Part shown: positions 18,603 to 24,403 of the stretch, piece after piece | Position numbering within the stretch: position 1 is the first letter of the stretch | Layout of the letters: the number at the start of each line of letters is the position of its first letter | Assembly (NCBI GenBank): GCA_902762875.1 | Contig: CACWPS010000003.1 | Location: forward strand, 30,550 to 94,549 | Length of the DNA stretch: 64,000 nt | Source of the DNA: Oscillospiraceae bacterium | Lineage (GTDB): Bacteria; Bacillota; Clostridia; Oscillospirales; Acutalibacteraceae | Direction of reading: 5' to 3' | Translations under genes and position numbers: made by a program | The notes under the pieces: model-generated | The model's database searches: none | What the model was told of the DNA's origin: nothing | What the model saw: the letters and a program-made list of their open reading frames with translations, nothing else

Positions 18603-20054
18603 ATGGAAGAATTCTTTGATAAAGAAGACTGCGTGGATGAGGGAACAGAAGTCTCGGAAAACACCGAAGCTACTGCCTTTGAGGATAATTCAGAAAATCA
18701 GAATGAGAACCCCGAAGAACAGGGCACGCAAAACAGCGAGGAAAATAATAATTCTCCTGAGGAACAGGAGCAAAACCCACCTTACTCCTCGCAAAATTTC
18801 GGCTATCCCGATTTTGGCGGGGATAATACCGCTGTACAGAACAGGATAAACTACTCCGATGTACTGCCCGTTAACGATTATAAGCCTATGAGCAGGGGAC
18901 TTAAGGTTTTTGCTTTGATTATGGCGGCGGTTATAATGCTTACGGGTGCGTCGGTTGCAGGCTACTTCTTAGGCAGAAGCAGCGTAGGCTCAGGGGCACG
19001 CAAAAATGTTGCGGTTAATTTGGCGGCAAAGCCTGCTGATACGGACGAGCTGACAGCCGCCCAAGTTTACGAAAAGGTAAACAGCTCCGTTGTTGGTATT
19101 ACGGTGTATAATTCCGCCGGAGACGGCTCTCAGGCGAGCGGTGTTTTCTACTCCGAGGACGGGTATATTGTAACCAACGACCATATTTATTCAGAGGTGG
19201 GGGCTCCTAAGTTTAAGGTTTATACATCGGACGGTAAGGAATATGACGCAAAGTATATTGCCGGTGATCAGGTAAGCGACCTTGCGGTGCTTAAAATTGA
19301 CTCAAGCGGCTTTGCTCCTGCCCAGTTTGGAAATTCGGACGAAATTGTATTCGGTGAAAATGTTGTCGCCATAGGCAGACCAAGCGACGCTACACAGGCT
19401 TCCAGCATTACAAAGGGTATTATTTCTTCTACGGGAAGACGGGTAAGAACCACATCTAACTACTCCGCAAAGCTTATCCAGACCGACAGCGCCATTAACC
19501 CCGGCAGCTCGGGCGGTGCGCTTGTAAATATGTACGGTCAGGTAATAGGTATTACCTCTTCAAAGCTGGCGGGAGTAAGCTATGATGCGGTGGGATACGC
19601 TATACCTACAAAGACGATGAAACGCATTTGCGAGGAGCTTATAAAGGAAGGAAAGGTTGTCAGCCGTGCAAAGCTGGGTATAACCTATACTGCAATTAAT
19701 TCGGTAACTGCCGAGATTAACGGTTATGACTGTGTGGGTCTGTATGTTGCCTCGGTTTCGGAGGATAGCGACCTTTTCGGCAAGATTTCCGAGGGCGATG
19801 TAATTACCCATATAAACGGCATAGAGGTTACAAGCGATGATATCGTGCTTGATATTATAGAGGAAAGCTCCGCAGGGGATAAAATTTCGGTCACCGTGTT
19901 AAACACAAAGGGAAATGAAGTCACCCTCGAAGCACAGCTCAAAGCGAATACAGGTGAGTCAAGCTATTCTACTGTAATTGATTCGTATGAAAACAAGGAT
20001 GACAACAGCTCAGACGGCTCGGGCGGAACGTTTAATTTCCCGTTCGGGGAGTAA
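18603..20054 (+). CDS. HtrA/DegP-like membrane-anchored serine protease with PDZ domain
   Basis: 483 residues. A very acidic, Gln/Asn-rich cytoplasmic N-terminus (about 1-95) precedes one membrane segment (about 102-125). The trypsin-like domain carries the triad His194 (TNDHI), Asp226 (VSDLAV) and Ser303 (PGSSGGA). A PDZ domain (about 355-450) includes EGDVITHINGIEV. Family members degrade or refold misfolded exported proteins. The gene follows a two-component pair as in the Bacillus CssRS/HtrA control circuit. A terminator follows at 20083-20118. Confidence 0.93.
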   Translation: MEEFFDKEDCVDEGTEVSENTEATAFEDNSENQNENPEEQGTQNSEENNNSPEEQEQNPPYSSQNFGYPDFGGDNTAVQNRINYSDVLPVNDYKPMSRGLKVFALIMAAVIMLTGASVAGYFLGRSSVGSGARKNVAVNLAAKPADTDELTAAQVYEKVNSSVVGITVYNSAGDGSQASGVFYSEDGYIVTNDHIYSEVGAPKFKVYTSDGKEYDAKYIAGDQVSDLAVLKIDSSGFAPAQFGNSDEIVFGENVVAIGRPSDATQASSITKGIISSTGRRVRTTSNYSAKLIQTDSAINPGSSGGALVNMYGQVIGITSSKLAGVSYDAVGYAIPTKTMKRICEELIKEGKVVSRAKLGITYTAINSVTAEINGYDCVGLYVASVSEDSDLFGKISEGDVITHINGIEVTSDDIVLDIIEESSAGDKISVTVLNTKGNEVTLEAQLKANTGESSYSTVIDSYENKDDNSSDGSGGTFNFPFGE

Positions 20055-20082
20055 GTGCAGAGGCGGAGTCAATAAAACAGTT

Positions 20083-20118
20083 AAATGCCGTGTATCCATT
20101 GCGATACACGGCATTTTT
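20083..20118 (+). terminator. terminator after htrA-like gene
   Basis: AAATGCCGTGTATC (20083-20096) pairs perfectly with GATACACGGCATTT (20103-20116), followed by T residues. It closes the kinase-protease operon. Confidence 0.9.
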
Positions 20119-20134
20119 ATAAGCGCTTTTTTGG

Positions 20135-20644
20135 GGCTCCCTTGTGTAAAGGGTAACTCCTCGCAGTGCGAGGAGATGTCACGGAGTGACAGAGGTGACC
20201 GCCGCCGTCAGCGGCTGTCAGCCGTCAGGCTGACTGAGGGATTGTTTGCAGATATTATCAATGTACTCACACACACCACGAAAATTGCGGGTAACTTCGT
20301 TGTTTGGTATGCGTAGAATCTTTAATCCATAGCCTTCAAGAAAAGTGTCACGCTCAATATCTTTTTCTTTGTTTTCATCCTCATAGTGTTGAGAACCATC
20401 TAACTCAATCACAAGTTTTGCTTGAGCGCTGTAAAAATCAGCAATGTATTTTCCCAATACTTTCTGGCGGGAAAACCGAACCGGATAGGTACGGAGGAAA
20501 TCGTACCATAGATGCCGTTCCTCCTTAGTCATTTCTTTTCGTAGCTGTTTTGCAAAAGGAACTAACTGCTTATTATGCTTTGACTGCATTGCAATCCCTC
20601 CGTCACGGCCTATGCCGTGCCACCTCCCTTTACACAAGGGAGGC
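20135..20644. mobile_element. DUF559 cassette A (hairpin-ended, 510 bp)
   Basis: The ends form imperfect terminal inverted repeats: GGCTCCCTTGTGTAAAGGG at 20135-20153 and its counterpart at 20624-20644. Each end is a chain of stem-loops. On the left these are CTCCTCGC/GCGAGGAG (20157-20175), TGTCAC/GTGACA (20177-20191), GCCGC/GCGGC (20201-20215) and GTCAGCC/GGCTGAC (20217-20234). On the right they are CACGGC/GCCGTG (20604-20619) and CTCCCTT/AAGGGAG (20624-20642). The only gene is a DUF559 nuclease on the minus strand. A second cassette with the same plan lies at 22702-23148. No target duplication was found. Mobility is inferred. Confidence 0.65.
20218..20589 (-). CDS. DUF559 endonuclease-like protein (cassette A)
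   Basis: 123 residues. MTKEERHLWYDFLR, RFSRQKVLGKYIADFY and LVIELDGSQHYE are hallmarks of the DUF559 family, a Vsr/PD-(D/E)XK-like nuclease fold. The putative metal ligands are the Asp of ADFY and the Glu/Asp of IELDG. The start at 20589 follows GGAGGGATTGCA, which is part of the repeat end. The last codons (QSLSQPDG-stop) read into the GTCAGCC hairpin. The encoded activity is untested; members are usually annotated only as endonuclease-domain proteins. It is homologous over its full length to the product at 22696-23094. Confidence 0.8.
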   Translation of the reverse strand: MQSKHNKQLVPFAKQLRKEMTKEERHLWYDFLRTYPVRFSRQKVLGKYIADFYSAQAKLVIELDGSQHYEDENKEKDIERDTFLEGYGLKILRIPNNEVTRNFRGVCEYIDNICKQSLSQPDG

Positions 20645-20660
20645 TTTGTTGCTTTTAGAT

Positions 20661-21071
20661 TTAACATTCTACAGGCTGCCATGCAAACGGCAACAAATCT
20701 CTTGCTTTAACCTTAATTAAGCTACCGTTTTCGTCATTTACAATCACCTTGATATCGGGACAATATTCAAAAAGCATCTGTCGGCAATTACCGCAAGGCG
20801 GAATCACACAATTAATATGTTTCTCGTGAACGGCAACGATTGTATCAAATTCACGCTCACCGTTTGAAATTGCGGTGCCAATGGTAATGTATTCCGCACA
20901 GGAGCCGTGAATACCGTCACAGTTTACACCTGTGTATATATTTCCGTTCTTGCACAAAACGGTACAGCCGACAGTATGATTGTATATACCGTCGTCAAAA
21001 TTCTTTTCTAAAACTTCTAATCCTAAAGCTATGAGCTCTTTATCTTTTTCGGTTATTGAATATAGCTCCAT
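20661..21071 (-). CDS. cytidine deaminase family protein
   Basis: 136 residues. The zinc site is formed by CAE (HGSCAEYITIG, about 57-67) and PCGNCRQ (about 92-98), as in homotetrameric cytidine deaminases. The Glu of CAE is the proton shuttle. The family converts (deoxy)cytidine to (deoxy)uridine in pyrimidine salvage. A blasticidin-deaminase-like subfamily is an alternative. The gene lies directly beside the right end of DUF559 cassette A, only 16 bases from the repeat. Confidence 0.85.
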   Translation of the reverse strand: MELYSITEKDKELIALGLEVLEKNFDDGIYNHTVGCTVLCKNGNIYTGVNCDGIHGSCAEYITIGTAISNGEREFDTIVAVHEKHINCVIPPCGNCRQMLFEYCPDIKVIVNDENGSLIKVKARDLLPFAWQPVEC

Positions 21072-21081
21072 ATTAACCTCA

Positions 21082-21633
21082 TTATCGCTTTGTCAGTATT
21101 TCAATGATTTGCGAATAAATGGTGTTGTCGTTCAAAAAGCGCTCTTTGATATAATTTGCCTGTTCCTCGTCCGAGACCAAAAGCTTTACGCTCATAAAGG
21201 GCTGTCCGCCGTCCATAGCCGAGCAGGTGATAAACATTTTTCCGTTTTCTTTTGTGATTTTTATATCGCTTTCCTTGGCGTTTCTGAAATGTGCGACCAT
21301 TTTAACTGCGGCGTTATACGCTCTGTCCTTTACCGAGTAGGCAAGAGAGGTTTTAAGGGTTTCGGCAATACTTCTGCCGCTTTGGGTAATAATATATGTG
21401 TCGTCCTTACTGTCTACAAGCTCCAAATGCCCGCTTTTGCACAGCGAGTCAATAGAGTCGTTCACTTCAAAGCAGTTAGCTATTCCCTCATAATGCAGGG
21501 TATTAGCGAGCATTCGCCCCGGTACGGGTGCGTTAATTGATGAAATGACATAACAAATTAATATTTTTATTTCTGCTGTGCTGAACAAACCGCCTACCGG
21601 GGATACTCCGGCGGAAACTGCATCCCTTTCCAA
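21082..21633 (-). CDS. DUF4364 family protein
   Basis: 183 residues. The N-terminal winged-helix-like half (LFSTAEIKILICYVISSINAPVPG ... NDSIDSLCKSGHLELV ... ITQSGRSIAETL) and C-terminal alpha/beta region match DUF4364, a Clostridia family of putative regulators with unknown targets. The start is TTG at 21633, preceded by TAAAGGAG. It lies ten bases upstream of the cytidine deaminase gene and probably shares its transcript. Confidence 0.78.
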   Translation of the reverse strand: MERDAVSAGVSPVGGLFSTAEIKILICYVISSINAPVPGRMLANTLHYEGIANCFEVNDSIDSLCKSGHLELVDSKDDTYIITQSGRSIAETLKTSLAYSVKDRAYNAAVKMVAHFRNAKESDIKITKENGKMFITCSAMDGGQPFMSVKLLVSDEEQANYIKERFLNDNTIYSQIIEILTKR

Positions 21634-21751
21634 AAGGCTTACTCCTTTACTGTTGATTTATTATATTATAACTTTAATTGGTGCTTTTTTCAAGTGTAAA
21701 AGAGTAAAAAACAACAATTCAATAAAAGTGGGCGAAAATGCTATTTTTTTC

Positions 21752-21780
21752 TTGACAATGGGACAAAGTGTTGATATAAT
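21752..21780 (+). promoter_or_regulatory. tRNA-Lys promoter (perfect consensus)
   Basis: TTGACA (21752-21757), a 17-base spacer and TATAAT (21775-21780) lie 17 bases before the tRNA. Confidence 0.9.
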
Positions 21781-21797
21781 AATAAAGCTGTTTATTT

Positions 21798-21873
21798 GAT
21801 TCATTAGCTCAGTTGGCAGAGCACTTGACTTTTAATCAAGGTGTCCGGGGTTCGAATCCCCGATGGATCACCA
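21798..21873 (+). tRNA. tRNA-Lys (TTT)
   Basis: 76 nt with encoded CCA. The acceptor stem is GATTCAT/ATGGATC, the anticodon loop CTTTTAA with anticodon TTT, and the T-arm CCGGGGTTCGAATCCCCG. A perfect promoter precedes it and a G-U-containing terminator hairpin follows at about 21878-21906. Its 3' part is duplicated downstream. Confidence 0.97.
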
Positions 21874-21922
21874 ACAAAGCATCGGCTTTTGTCGGTGCTT
21901 TTTTATTTCATATCAAATCGGG
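21856..21922 (+). repeat. 67-bp direct repeat, copy 1 (tRNA-Lys 3' half plus terminator)
   Basis: It runs from within the T-arm through CCA and the terminator hairpin. It is identical to 22037-22103, 181 bases downstream. Such duplication of a tRNA 3' end is what site-specific integration leaves behind. Confidence 0.9.
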
Positions 21923-22036
21923 GATTCGAACCCTGAGAGGGTGAGTGGCGTTAAGAAAACAGTCCGGTGGACTGTTTTTAGTCACGAAGTCCGCAGCGGT
22001 CATACCGCAAGGACGAAATACGCCTACGGCGGATTT
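21923..22036. repeat. hairpin-rich insert between the tRNA-Lys repeats
   Basis: 114 bases with stems AAAACAGTCC/GGACTGTTTT, GCGGT/ACCGC and CGCC/GGCG. Together with the end of copy 1 it begins with an inverted copy of the tRNA T-arm (GGGATTCGAACCC). No coding potential seen. Confidence 0.65.
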
Positions 22037-22103
22037 ATCCCCGATGGATCACCAACAAAGCATCGGCTTTTGTCGGTGCTTTTTTATTTCATATCAAATC
22101 GGG
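22037..22103 (+). repeat. 67-bp direct repeat, copy 2
   Basis: Exact copy of 21856-21922, including tRNA-Lys 3' end, CCA and terminator. It has no 5' half, so it is not a functional tRNA. Confidence 0.9.
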
Positions 22104-22121
22104 ATTTCGTAATGAATCTTT

Positions 22122-22652
22122 TTACGATTCAAACCGTTTATACAGTAAATCTACGGCTTTACAGGCAAAAAAGCCGATAAATACGCCGAGAATAATGCCC
22201 GCTAAGACATCGGTGGGATAGTGCACATAAAGGTAAAGCCTTGAAAAGGCGATAATTACCGCAAGAATAAGGGCGGGAATGCCTATGCGTTTATCCCGTA
22301 TCATCAGCACGGTCGCCGCCTCAAAGGAGGCGAGGGTGTGGCCCGACGGAAAAGAATAGTCCGAAAGGCGGGCAATCAGAATTTCAATACCCTCGTTTAA
22401 ATCATAAGGCCGTATGCGCCCCACAAGATTTTTTAAAAGCAGATTTCCGATAATAAGCCCGCCTATAAGGGCTAGCGCAACCGAAAAGCCCGTCTTGCGG
22501 GTTTTTTTGAATATTAAAAGCAGTACCGCCGCTATAATCCAGATAATACCGCCGTTTGCAAGACTTGTTATCACGGGCATTACCGCATCAAGAAACGGGC
22601 AGGCGAGATGCTCCCTTATAAAATCAAGTATTCTAAGCTCAAATTCGTTCAA
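22122..22652 (-). CDS. PAP2-family phosphatase
   Basis: 176 residues with about five membrane segments. The three phosphatase motifs are present: KNLVGRIRP (about 74-82), PSGH (about 102-105) and SRLYLYVHYPTDVLAG (about 137-152) with its catalytic His. The family dephosphorylates undecaprenyl pyrophosphate, phosphatidic acid or related lipids at the membrane. The closely placed SRxYxxxHxPxDV motif is typical of UppP/BcrC-like enzymes; the substrate is not certain. Confidence 0.9.
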   Translation of the reverse strand: MNEFELRILDFIREHLACPFLDAVMPVITSLANGGIIWIIAAVLLLIFKKTRKTGFSVALALIGGLIIGNLLLKNLVGRIRPYDLNEGIEILIARLSDYSFPSGHTLASFEAATVLMIRDKRIGIPALILAVIIAFSRLYLYVHYPTDVLAGIILGVFIGFFACKAVDLLYKRFES

Positions 22653-22695
22653 GTTTTTCAGCTCCTTTTAATTTACTATATATTTGTGATACAAA

Positions 22696-23094
22696 TCAGT
22701 CGGCTCCCTCTGACGAGGGAGCTGTCAGCGAAGCTGACTGAGGGAGAGATTTTTTAACCGCTAAATCTATGTATTCGCATACACCGGAGAAATTACGGTC
22801 AATATCCAAATTACAAATTCTTAAAACCGTTAGATTCATATTTTCCAAATCTTTTGTACGAATTTTGTCTTTTTCCGCTTGCTCTGAGGTATAGTGTCCG
22901 CCGCCGTCAAGTTCAATAACGAGCCTTGCTTTTGCACAATAGAAATCCGTTATATAATTTCCAATAGCTTTCTGCCTTTGGAATCGTATAGGGTAATTTC
23001 TTAAAAACTCATACCAAAGTTTTCGCTCCCACGGTGTCATATTATTTCTCAAGATTTTAGCAAGAGGGATATTGGCTTTATTGTATTCCTTCAT
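22696..23094 (-). CDS. DUF559 endonuclease-like protein (cassette B)
   Basis: 132 residues. MTPWERKLWYEFLR, RFQRQKAIGNYITDFY and LVIELDGGGHY align with the cassette A protein. The putative metal ligands are the Asp of TDFY and the Glu/Asp of IELDG. The start at 23094 follows GGAGGGAGAGAAA, again supplied by the repeat end. The last residues (QSASLTAPSSEGAD) are encoded by the left-end hairpins, with the stop beyond the cassette edge. The function is unproven; a nuclease acting on the cassette's own hairpin ends is one possibility. Confidence 0.8.
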   Translation of the reverse strand: MKEYNKANIPLAKILRNNMTPWERKLWYEFLRNYPIRFQRQKAIGNYITDFYCAKARLVIELDGGGHYTSEQAEKDKIRTKDLENMNLTVLRICNLDIDRNFSGVCEYIDLAVKKSLPQSASLTAPSSEGAD

Positions 23095-23148
23095 TTTCTC
23101 TCCCTCCGTCAAAACTTCGTTTTGCCACCTCCCTCGTCAGAGGGAGGC
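22702..23148. mobile_element. DUF559 cassette B (hairpin-ended, 447 bp)
   Basis: Same plan as cassette A. Left-end hairpins are CTCCCTC/GAGGGAG (22704-22721) and GTCAGC/GCTGAC (22724-22738). Right-end hairpins are CAAAAC/GTTTTG (23110-23124) and CTCCCTC/GAGGGAG (23129-23146). The ends start GGCTCCCT and finish AGGGAGGC. Stem sequences differ from cassette A but pairing is kept. Target duplication not seen. Confidence 0.65.
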
Positions 23149-23278
23149 TTGATTCGGTTAATTCTAATATACCATTTATCGCCATTATTTTCAAGTTATA
23201 TTCCTGCCGTGTCTTGAACTGAACATTTTTTGTGAGTCTGCACACAAAATAAGATGTGGACTTTATTAAAATATCAGA

Positions 23279-23302
23279 TATAATTTAATTAGAAGCTTCT
23301 AA
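23279..23302 (+). promoter_or_regulatory. -10 box and palindromic operator before the XRE regulator
   Basis: TATAAT at 23279-23284 is followed by the perfect 14-bp palindrome TTAGAAGCTTCTAA (23289-23302). It overlaps the likely transcription start and is a good site for autoregulation by the downstream HTH protein. Confidence 0.6.
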
Positions 23303-23329
23303 TAAAACCTGATTAAAGGAGCACCGAAT

Positions 23330-24262
23330 ATGAATAATGCTGTATTTAAAAATAACTTAAAAAAATTGAGATTGCAAAAAAATCTTACACAAGAGCAGGT
23401 TGCCGATATTTTATGTGTCAGTTCACACACAATTTCAAGGTGGGAATGCGGCACTACCTTCCCTGATGTTATGATGCTGCCGCAAATCGCACAATTATAC
23501 TGTGTAACGATTGATGATTTATATAAGGATAATTCAGTAGCATATGACAACTATGCTCAACGCTTAGCCGCCATTTATGAATCTACCCGTAATCCTTATG
23601 ATTTTATTCAAGCAGAAACAGAATTTTCAAAACTGATAAAAAGCGGTACTCATACCATTGAGGATATAAGGCAATACGGTATAATGCACCAATATATGAT
23701 GCAATACTGTACGAATAAGGCGATTTCTTTGTTTGATGAAATTTTGGAGCAAGATGCTGAATTGAACGAAGAGGTTTATTGGGCTACCAAGCGTCAAAAA
23801 CTGCTTTTATATTCGCAAATCGGAAAAGGCAGTCAAAGCATTTCCGAGCAGTTAGAAAGAATAAACAGCGGCTTGGCAGGAGTACAAGATTGGATATGCT
23901 TGATAGCCGCATACCGTTATAACGGTAATGAAAAGGAGGCATATACTTACTTTAAAAAGGCAGTGATGCAATTTCCTGACAATGCAATTCTTTATGTGTA
24001 CGGCGGTGATGCTTGCAAAAATTTAAAGCTTTATGATGAAGCGTTTGTGTATTGGGATACGGCGATTAAATTGGACGGTTCCGTTTTGGCGGCGAAGTAT
24101 TCAAAGGCAGACTGCTATGAAGAATTATCGGAATTTGAAAAAGCAGGTGCTGTCTGGGAAGAAATTGCACAAGACTTGAAAAATAACGGTTATGATATTG
24201 AATCCGAATTTCCTTCTAAGCAAGCAAAACTATGCGCCGACAGAGTTAAAAAGCACATTTAA
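23330..24262 (+). CDS. XRE-family regulator with TPR domain
   Basis: 310 residues. The N-terminal Cro/CI HTH (about 7-62) contains LTQEQVADILCVSSHTISRWECG. The rest is helical TPR-like repeats, for example AYTYFKKAVMQFPDNAILYVYGGDA and LYDEAFVYWDTAIKLDGS. This architecture resembles peptide- or ligand-sensing HTH-TPR regulators, but no partner peptide gene is visible. AAAGGAG supports the start. It is monocistronic, with a hairpin at 24273-24298 downstream. It sits just outside DUF559 cassette B. Confidence 0.82.
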   Translation: MNNAVFKNNLKKLRLQKNLTQEQVADILCVSSHTISRWECGTTFPDVMMLPQIAQLYCVTIDDLYKDNSVAYDNYAQRLAAIYESTRNPYDFIQAETEFSKLIKSGTHTIEDIRQYGIMHQYMMQYCTNKAISLFDEILEQDAELNEEVYWATKRQKLLLYSQIGKGSQSISEQLERINSGLAGVQDWICLIAAYRYNGNEKEAYTYFKKAVMQFPDNAILYVYGGDACKNLKLYDEAFVYWDTAIKLDGSVLAAKYSKADCYEELSEFEKAGAVWEEIAQDLKNNGYDIESEFPSKQAKLCADRVKKHI

Positions 24263-24272
24263 CTATTATAAG

Positions 24273-24303
24273 ACGGGTGGGAGAGACAGCTCACCCGTAT
24301 TTT
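24273..24303 (+). terminator. terminator after XRE-TPR gene
   Basis: ACGGGTG (24273-24279) pairs with CACCCGT (24292-24298), followed by ATTTTGT. Confidence 0.6.
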
Positions 24304-24359
24304 GTATCCGTTGTATCTCGGCTATAAAACTTTTTCTTGTGCTTTGCAACACATATTGC

Positions 24360-24388
24360 TTGAATAAAACCTATTTATGTGATAATAT
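24360..24388 (+). promoter_or_regulatory. pth-mfd promoter
   Basis: TTGAAT (24360-24365), a 17-base spacer and TAATAT (24383-24388) lie 15 bases before the pth start. Confidence 0.6.
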
Positions 24389-24403
24389 AATAGGCGGTGA
24401 GAA

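Follow-up and report, generated by a model that had tools for sequence, protein, structure and literature searches.

The window analysed here, a stretch of 64,000 nucleotides from an Oscillospiraceae bacterium (assembly GCA_902762875.1, contig CACWPS010000003.1), contains two short cassettes, each consisting of a single DUF559 (PF04480) nuclease gene on the minus strand between ends that can form hairpins. Their components are listed below, with coordinates counted from the first letter of the window and with folding z-scores of the ends as DNA.

20135..20644, minus strand: cassette 1, 510 bp, with B-type ends that recur around relatives of gene 1
20218..20589, minus strand: DUF559 (PF04480) nuclease gene 1, 123 amino acids, start MQSKHNKQ
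20135..20244, plus strand: left end of cassette 1, on the 3′ side of the gene; hairpin 1, three extra hairpins, hairpin 2 and the tag GACTGAGGGATTG; z -6.1
20592..20644, plus strand: right end of cassette 1, on the 5′ side of the gene; tag TCCCTCCGTC, hairpin 2 and hairpin 1; z -6.2
22702..23148, minus strand: cassette 2, 447 bp, with A-type ends; nine further copies have nearly identical boundaries
22696..23094, minus strand: DUF559 nuclease gene 2, from an ATG, start MKEYNKAN; the frame exits the cassette, with its stop at 22696-22698
22702..22748, plus strand: left end of cassette 2; hairpin 1, hairpin 2 and the tag GACTGAGGGAGAG; z -4.1
23098..23148, plus strand: right end of cassette 2; tag TCCCTCCGTC, hairpin 2 and hairpin 1; z -4.6

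An earlier note made from this DNA alone had described two DUF559 elements of these lengths on the minus strand, and both the coordinates and the PF04480 matches (E 7.3e-30 for gene 1 and 6.5e-26 for gene 2) agree with it. DUF559 is the sole gene content of both cassettes, and no intron match is present in the window at the Rfam gathering score, the DUF559 genes being free-standing. The terminal inverted repeats (TIRs) with hairpins that had also been proposed are 17 nt long and 100% identical in cassette 1 (20137-20153 and 20626-20642), and 24 nt long and 92% identical in cassette 2 (22704-22727 and 23123-23146), and in single-stranded form each of the four ends folds far better than its shuffles do (z-scores between -4.1 and -6.2). 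Each end is bipartite: the outer hairpin, which is CTCCCTTGTGTAAAGGG-like in cassette 1 and CTCCCTCTGACGAGGGAG in cassette 2, is followed by an inner one and then by a tag. The tag is GACTGAGGGA at the 3′ side of the gene and GACGGAGGGA at the 5′ side, with type-specific variants; we name the end types B, in which the tag is followed by TTG (cassette 1), and A, in which it is followed by GAG (cassette 2). Allowing one mismatch, GACTGAGGGA occurs six times in the window compared to 1.55 expected, and four of the six are cassette ends. Gene 2 continues in frame across the left inverted repeat to a stop codon just outside cassette 2, such that the place of insertion determines the C-terminus of its product.

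Three extra hairpins enlarge the left end of cassette 1; they form a block (CTCCTCGCAGTGCGAGGAG...CCGCCGCCGTCAGCGG-like) at 20153-20220, and similar blocks are seen in the left ends of four other loci (L012, L025, L034 and L046), a comparable addition being present in several gene-less copies. The hairpin modules look as if they are themselves exchanged between elements.

The two proteins are homologous yet diverged, as had been noted, sharing 54% identity. The closest solved structures by sequence are NGO0050 (3hrl; E 1.5e-19) and, second, the homing endonuclease I-Bth0305I (3r3p; E 0.0013), in line with the proposal that these are Vsr/PD-(D/E)XK-like nucleases. An AlphaFold2 model of the gene 1 protein, from 51 sequences, has a pLDDT of 88 and a pTM of 0.82; its fold matches 3hrl (E 1.1e-5, the sole fold match below 0.001), a mitochondrial ribosome protein (E 2.9e-3), 3r3p (E 3.6e-3, TM 0.65/0.81) and Vsr itself (1vsr; TM 0.60, E 2.0). 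Invariant residues include E25, E63, D65, H69, D78 and R81, in a numbering that counts one residue before the start Met. Overall sequence and fold similarity thus place the DUF559 proteins, as predicted, with the PD-(D/E)XK fold of Vsr and its relatives. PMC9403480 places a DUF559 gene found in an intein among the EDxHD homing endonucleases, and PMC8836110 describes a Faecalibacterium DUF559 gene that adjoins mam.

A search with window positions 19000-24400 in 48 genomes, the source included, identified nine further copies of cassette 2, at 80–87% identity, outside cassette 2's own surroundings. The left boundary is within 2 bp of 22702 in eight of the nine and 11 bp earlier in the ninth, and the right boundary is within 7 bp of 23148 in all nine. 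Three copies are in genome G007, one is elsewhere in the source genome and one, at 87% identity, is in a genome of another family (G059); coding neighbours compared with same-genus genomes share 63–79% identity (listed stretches longer than 400 bp). G007 additionally has a copy that has decayed and lost an internal segment. Comparison of 80-nt flanks shows that four copies (in G059, in G023, and two of those in G007) lie within one multi-copy frame, and that the flanks of the other five and of cassette 2 look mutually unrelated (local scores of at most 16, compared to 13–58 inside the frame).

The ends also occur without the gene. The motif GACKGAGGGA is present 49 times in the 1.69-Mb source genome, compared to once for a reversed control. 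The genome contains three DUF559 matches, every one within a hairpin-ended cassette, and with these three cassettes excluded there are 43 gene-less hits at 32 sites (hits less than 120 bp apart being merged into one site). At many gene-less sites the two halves, one T-tagged and one G-tagged, are in inverted order, and other sites have one exact motif and a variant partner. A loose whole-element pattern yields 23 matches of 108–244 bp (median 140) at loci that overlap, so that a site may count twice. The copies are of A-type, B-type and two more kinds with different left halves; some have extra hairpins, and others lie within larger palindromic frames. As in repetitive extragenic palindromic (REP) elements with their REP-associated tyrosine transposases (RAYTs), to which the earlier note had likened the layout, the inverted palindromic repeats flank the gene and also occur alone.

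PF04480 is present in 34 of 80 genomes, the source genome counted, and at least 563 relatives are present among the stretches examined when genome_contigs (84,980 species) is scanned at the protein level; the best 80, which were kept, have up to 88% identity, and many are in different Clostridia. From 114 distinct DUF559 genes pooled, 106 have enough sequence on both sides and eight were dropped. The earlier note had staked its reading beforehand on hairpins accompanying DUF559 genes in other genomes, and they do so: the TIR score exceeds that of every one of 86 control pairs, drawn from 700 bp further out, in 92 of the 106, made up of 26/33 genes from whole-genome searches and 66/73 from the protein scan, a sample biased to relatives of protein 1. 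End types vary by clade, for example GCCTTCCCCTTGAGGGGAAGG ... GGATGAGG or CCCCTCCCGTGGAGGGG ... GGGGTGGT. All 88 distinct pairs of facing halves 150–2500 bp apart enclose a DUF559 frame, at loci mostly picked for DUF559. Outside the gut Clostridia, 16 of 37 matched plasmid-collection records, picked for spread, were examined, and inverted repeats (shuffle p < 0.02) are present in nine, namely four Deinococcus, a Novosphingobium, a Sphingomonas and three cyanobacteria; the order of the end parts differs in the Deinococcus cassettes. DUF559 loci are also found in viral contigs (two) and phage records (five), and inverted repeats are present in two of the four such loci examined (scores 18 and 28).

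Among 57 genes with less than 85% mutual identity, protein identity is correlated with end similarity both upstream (Mantel rho 0.62) and downstream (0.73), each with a p value of 0.002, the floor of 500 permutations. The inner hairpin (hairpin 2) has both-sided changes at 6/6 pairs among 48 distinct 5′ ends, which were pattern-selected from 77; an earlier count on 41/48 gave a like picture. Over both hairpins 93.4% of cells pair, with shuffles reaching 77.7%, and covariation scores 0.410 versus 0.134, in an alignment that mis-registers the outer hairpin in some end types.

DUF559 genes are under strong purifying selection, with a median ratio of nonsynonymous to synonymous substitution (dN/dS) of 0.09 over 443 non-independent pairs. 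Such constraint would suit a host-useful repair or defence nuclease, akin to that of very-short-patch (VSP) repair, with cassettes that spread by homologous recombination between dispersed repeats and have no dedicated mobility. So would the Caulobacter protein VsrA, which has a DUF559 domain and, according to PMC12907096, causes an SOS response seen without the methylase ScmA, as would E. coli ycjD, a DUF559 gene at a single place, between sapF and fabI, in most genomes (3363 of 5426 contain at least 80% of a 2.5-kb query in one place). We nonetheless regard a host function of this kind as an improbable account of the cassettes: the source genome has 32 gene-less sites and three genes, copies with fixed boundaries have unrelated flanks, the ends are specific to the protein clade, and no methylase is present among the seven neighbour genes scanned.

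Filled and empty sites can be compared between species in Deinococcus; the Clostridia genomes are one per species. On a plasmid of Deinococcus NW-56, 511 bp with a DUF559 cassette lie between hpaE and an oxidoreductase gene, a junction that is a 4-bp gene overlap in D. deserti, D. ficus, D. radiophilus and D. proteolyticus. The oxidoreductase/hpaB junction contains a cassette in D. proteolyticus (487 bp) and a truncated one in D. wulumuqiensis (328 bp), and it is 12 bp in D. deserti, 33 bp in D. ficus, 35 bp in D. radiophilus and an overlap in D. radiodurans. D. aetherius has a cassette between a VOC gene and hpaE, and in D. radiodurans and D. wulumuqiensis the hpaE/oxidoreductase junction is occupied by an SMI1/KNR4 gene. 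Empty sites, which the earlier note had held to be informative, are thus found between species in this operon, and related ones are found inside frames in the Clostridia.

One such frame is the multi-copy palindrome GCTTGTGTCAAATTAGGGACAAAT ... CATAACAACAAGCA (L294-L323), with 30 copies in 15 of 49 genomes of the source genus. Its internal site is occupied by a full A-type cassette in six copies (two with near-same flanks), a decayed or partial A-type cassette in two, another end type with DUF559 in two (L300 and L322), a gene-less element in seven and a single hairpin in four; the other nine are unclassed, the right arm not being found or other sequence following. A DUF559 reading frame is present in the ten copies with full, decayed or partial, or other-type cassettes, and in 0/20 of the rest. 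A second, larger outer unit was followed in 17 genomes known to hold DUF559, where 30 of 34 places were read: 20 have a B-type start, four an A-type start and two a third type (both with DUF559), and the rest comprise one gene-less element (L219), one single hairpin (L221) and two places with neither. Four of these 26 cassette starts (L215, L218, L222 and L227) have no DUF559 frame in the stretch examined.

The cassettes have fixed boundaries, lie at many sites in several families, are accompanied by gene-less miniatures and carry ends that track the protein, and their mobility is well supported. The earlier note had raised mobility cautiously, and the fixed-boundary copies and the filled and empty states uphold it, whereas transposition in the strict sense and the nuclease as driver are putative. 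We lean, if only slightly, towards a mobile cassette that spreads in homing style by action of its own Vsr-like nuclease on hairpin DNA, with gene-less derivatives; the nuclease's part as driver and the manner of spread are what we infer. The predicted nuclease would recognise its own hairpin ends, as a cruciform or as a single-stranded hairpin, and would cut a target bearing a hairpin; repair of the break would then copy the cassette into that target. Gene-less copies would be non-autonomous derivatives that use the nuclease in trans, and recombination between the terminal hairpins would remove a cassette and leave a single hairpin.

Homing-like copying is favoured because of the relatives of the nuclease, the lack of longer target duplications, and the occurrence of differing cassette types and single hairpins at one site, and it fits at least as well as strict transposition. 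None of 76 cassettes is flanked by a direct repeat of at least 5 bp, compared to 2.0% of cross pairs, and 3-bp repeats are slightly up (22% versus 17%); the 76 cassettes are not independent, many lying within one shared outer unit. The lack of longer duplications is also consistent with single-strand transposition of the REP/RAYT kind, in which the nuclease would excise and insert single-stranded DNA guided by the hairpins, and the recognition sites of insertion sequence (IS) IS200/IS605 and REP enzymes resemble these two-hairpin ends with conserved tags. We give this mechanism little credence and consider it less likely than homing-like copying, as no conserved insertion tetranucleotide has been established and PD-(D/E)XK enzymes are not known to rejoin strands in the manner of HUH tyrosine transposases.

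The number of DUF559 genes correlates with that of motif hits (rho 0.52, 80 genomes), a count to which the cassettes themselves add, and genome size correlates too; DUF559 is present in seven of nine repeat-rich genomes and 27 of 71 others (Fisher p 0.028, ignoring kinship). These counts lend weak support to a tie between DUF559 and the repeats.

Several observations weigh against homing by the nuclease. Subtraction of a flat two hits per gene abolishes the correlation (rho 0.13, p 0.27), a treatment that over-corrects because only 27 of 53 examined genes have motif hits at their ends; subtraction of the hits actually at genes leaves a rho of 0.41 (p 1.4e-4), with a few genes left out and with phylogeny and genome size ignored. 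There is no significant TIR in seven of the 16 plasmid-collection records (E. coli, Neisseria, Azospirillum, Shinella, Photobacterium, Sinorhizobium and Thermoactinomyces), and two of the four viral or phage loci lack inverted repeats (scores 8 and 9). Direct repeats of 4 bp or more are slightly commoner at cassettes (12%) than in cross pairs (7%). Flanks beyond the ends are seldom palindromic, with 8/43 above the 95% cross level; insertion into palindromes is accordingly too weak to be claimed as a general rule, and because of these flanks a hairpin target is suggested by the frames only. A single hairpin could be either an insertion target or a scar, the state before insertion or the one left after it.

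The frames are also pertinent to the chief alternative, in which the repeats are miniature inverted-repeat transposable elements (MITEs) moved in trans by an enzyme of another kind, a transposase or recombinase unrelated to DUF559, which is a passenger. It is common for a cassette to be enclosed by a larger palindromic frame that also recurs by itself, and because four of the nine cassette 2 copies share one frame, this frame may have moved some of them; moreover, two of the nine repeat-rich genomes (G035 and G063) have no DUF559 match. Against this, DUF559 is the only gene found between facing halves (88/88 pairs, at loci mostly chosen for DUF559), the ends track the protein phylogeny, target-site duplications of 5 bp or more are lacking, and inverted repeats are present at DUF559 genes in other phyla (9/16). 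We consider the passenger explanation unlikely, if the most serious of the alternatives, and continue to favour homing-like spread by the nuclease.

Such cassettes are similar to REPtrons (REP or paired-REP REPIN repeats with a RAYT, TnpA-REP), in that a single enzyme gene lies between inverted palindromic repeats, many gene-less paired palindromes are present in the genome, and the ends differ by enzyme clade. They differ in that RAYTs are HUH tyrosine enzymes of IS200/IS605 type, whereas here the protein is PF04480 with a predicted fold near NGO0050, I-Bth0305I and Vsr, and in that REPs have a GTAG tag in place of two hairpins with GACKGAGGGA-like tags. EDxHD (Vsr-like) homing endonucleases such as I-Bth0305I share the nuclease superfamily; the gene for I-Bth0305I lies within a group I intron, whereas here there is no intron match and hairpin ends bound the nuclease gene itself. 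Prokaryotic MITEs share with these elements a short, non-coding, dispersed form bounded by TIRs, but MITEs and DDE-type IS elements differ in their target-site duplications (5 bp or more in none of the 76 here, 3–4 bp being possible) and in the DDE transposase of the full-length element, no DDE gene being seen between the facing halves here, which enclose DUF559.

A further comparison is with the CGTC-tagged REPs (Di Nocera et al. 2013, PMC3733652), which are reported to have a CGTC tag, an 8–9 bp stem starting with AT, a 4–5 nt loop and a CCA tail, and to lack a dedicated transposase. A module of CGTC, stem-loop and CCA is present 5′ of 49/106 DUF559 genes and 3′ of 0/106 (in the same orientation to the gene), with five hits across both strands of 204 control stretches. 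Most stems at DUF559 ends begin with AC, AA or TT, however, unlike the AT reported for the REP stems, and the CGTC pattern is present in one of five alphaproteobacterial records, as only two copies, both at its DUF559 gene, with no dispersed copies. As the stem rule differs and dispersed copies were not found, we treat the connection to CGTC-tagged REPs as a lead only.

The literature searched contains no description of DUF559 cassettes with hairpin ends and nothing that connects MITEs or REPs with DUF559, COG2852 or Vsr-like nucleases, the latter being a weak negative with most subscription journals and bioRxiv outside its scope. Cassettes and miniatures in gut Clostridia and some other bacteria suggest a selfish element with an enzyme new to such repeats. 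Bacteria commonly carry dispersed palindromic repeats, many families of which lack a known mobilising enzyme; DUF559, a large and strongly conserved family of unknown role with hairpins matched clade by clade, is a specific and testable candidate. On a broader and more tentative view, to which we would give somewhat less than even confidence, DUF559 proteins may be the enzymes of a second, pan-bacterial superfamily of selfish palindromic repeats, in which a nuclease of Vsr/PD-(D/E)XK type takes the place of an HUH or DDE transposase and spreads bipartite hairpin units along with gene-less ones, perhaps including the CGTC-tagged REPs. Should DUF559 prove to be the mobilising enzyme, a nuclease class would join the drivers of minimal mobile elements, and DUF559 would gain a role.

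Two candidate empty sites were rejected. The three E. coli genomes examined that lack ycjD carry an efflux operon before fabI, reflecting a replacement (L195, L196 and L198 versus L197), and genome G023 of the source genus lacks not only cassette 1 but also the cytidine deaminase gene, so the site is not precise.

At three loci (L079, L090 and L113) the DUF559 cassette is part of a larger unit resembling a gene cassette, which also has a small passenger open reading frame that varies and outer repeats like GGTGTCCGTAAAACAGTT / AACTGTTTTACGGACACC, and by eye this unit appears to lie within the loop of transcription terminators in different Clostridia. Among six Butyricicoccus-group genomes, only one besides that of L113 itself shares a long L113 flank, the right one.

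The genes neighbouring the window cassettes are all ordinary, encoding a trypsin-like/PDZ protease, cytidine deaminase, DUF4364, PAP2 and HTH-TPR proteins, peptidyl-tRNA hydrolase and a histidine kinase. A tRNA gene is located between the cassettes (21798-21870), and its 3′ end and downstream sequence are repeated (21856-21928 and 22037-22109; 97% identity over 73 nt, 181 bp apart), much like the duplicated attachment site of an integrated element that was lost or is tiny.

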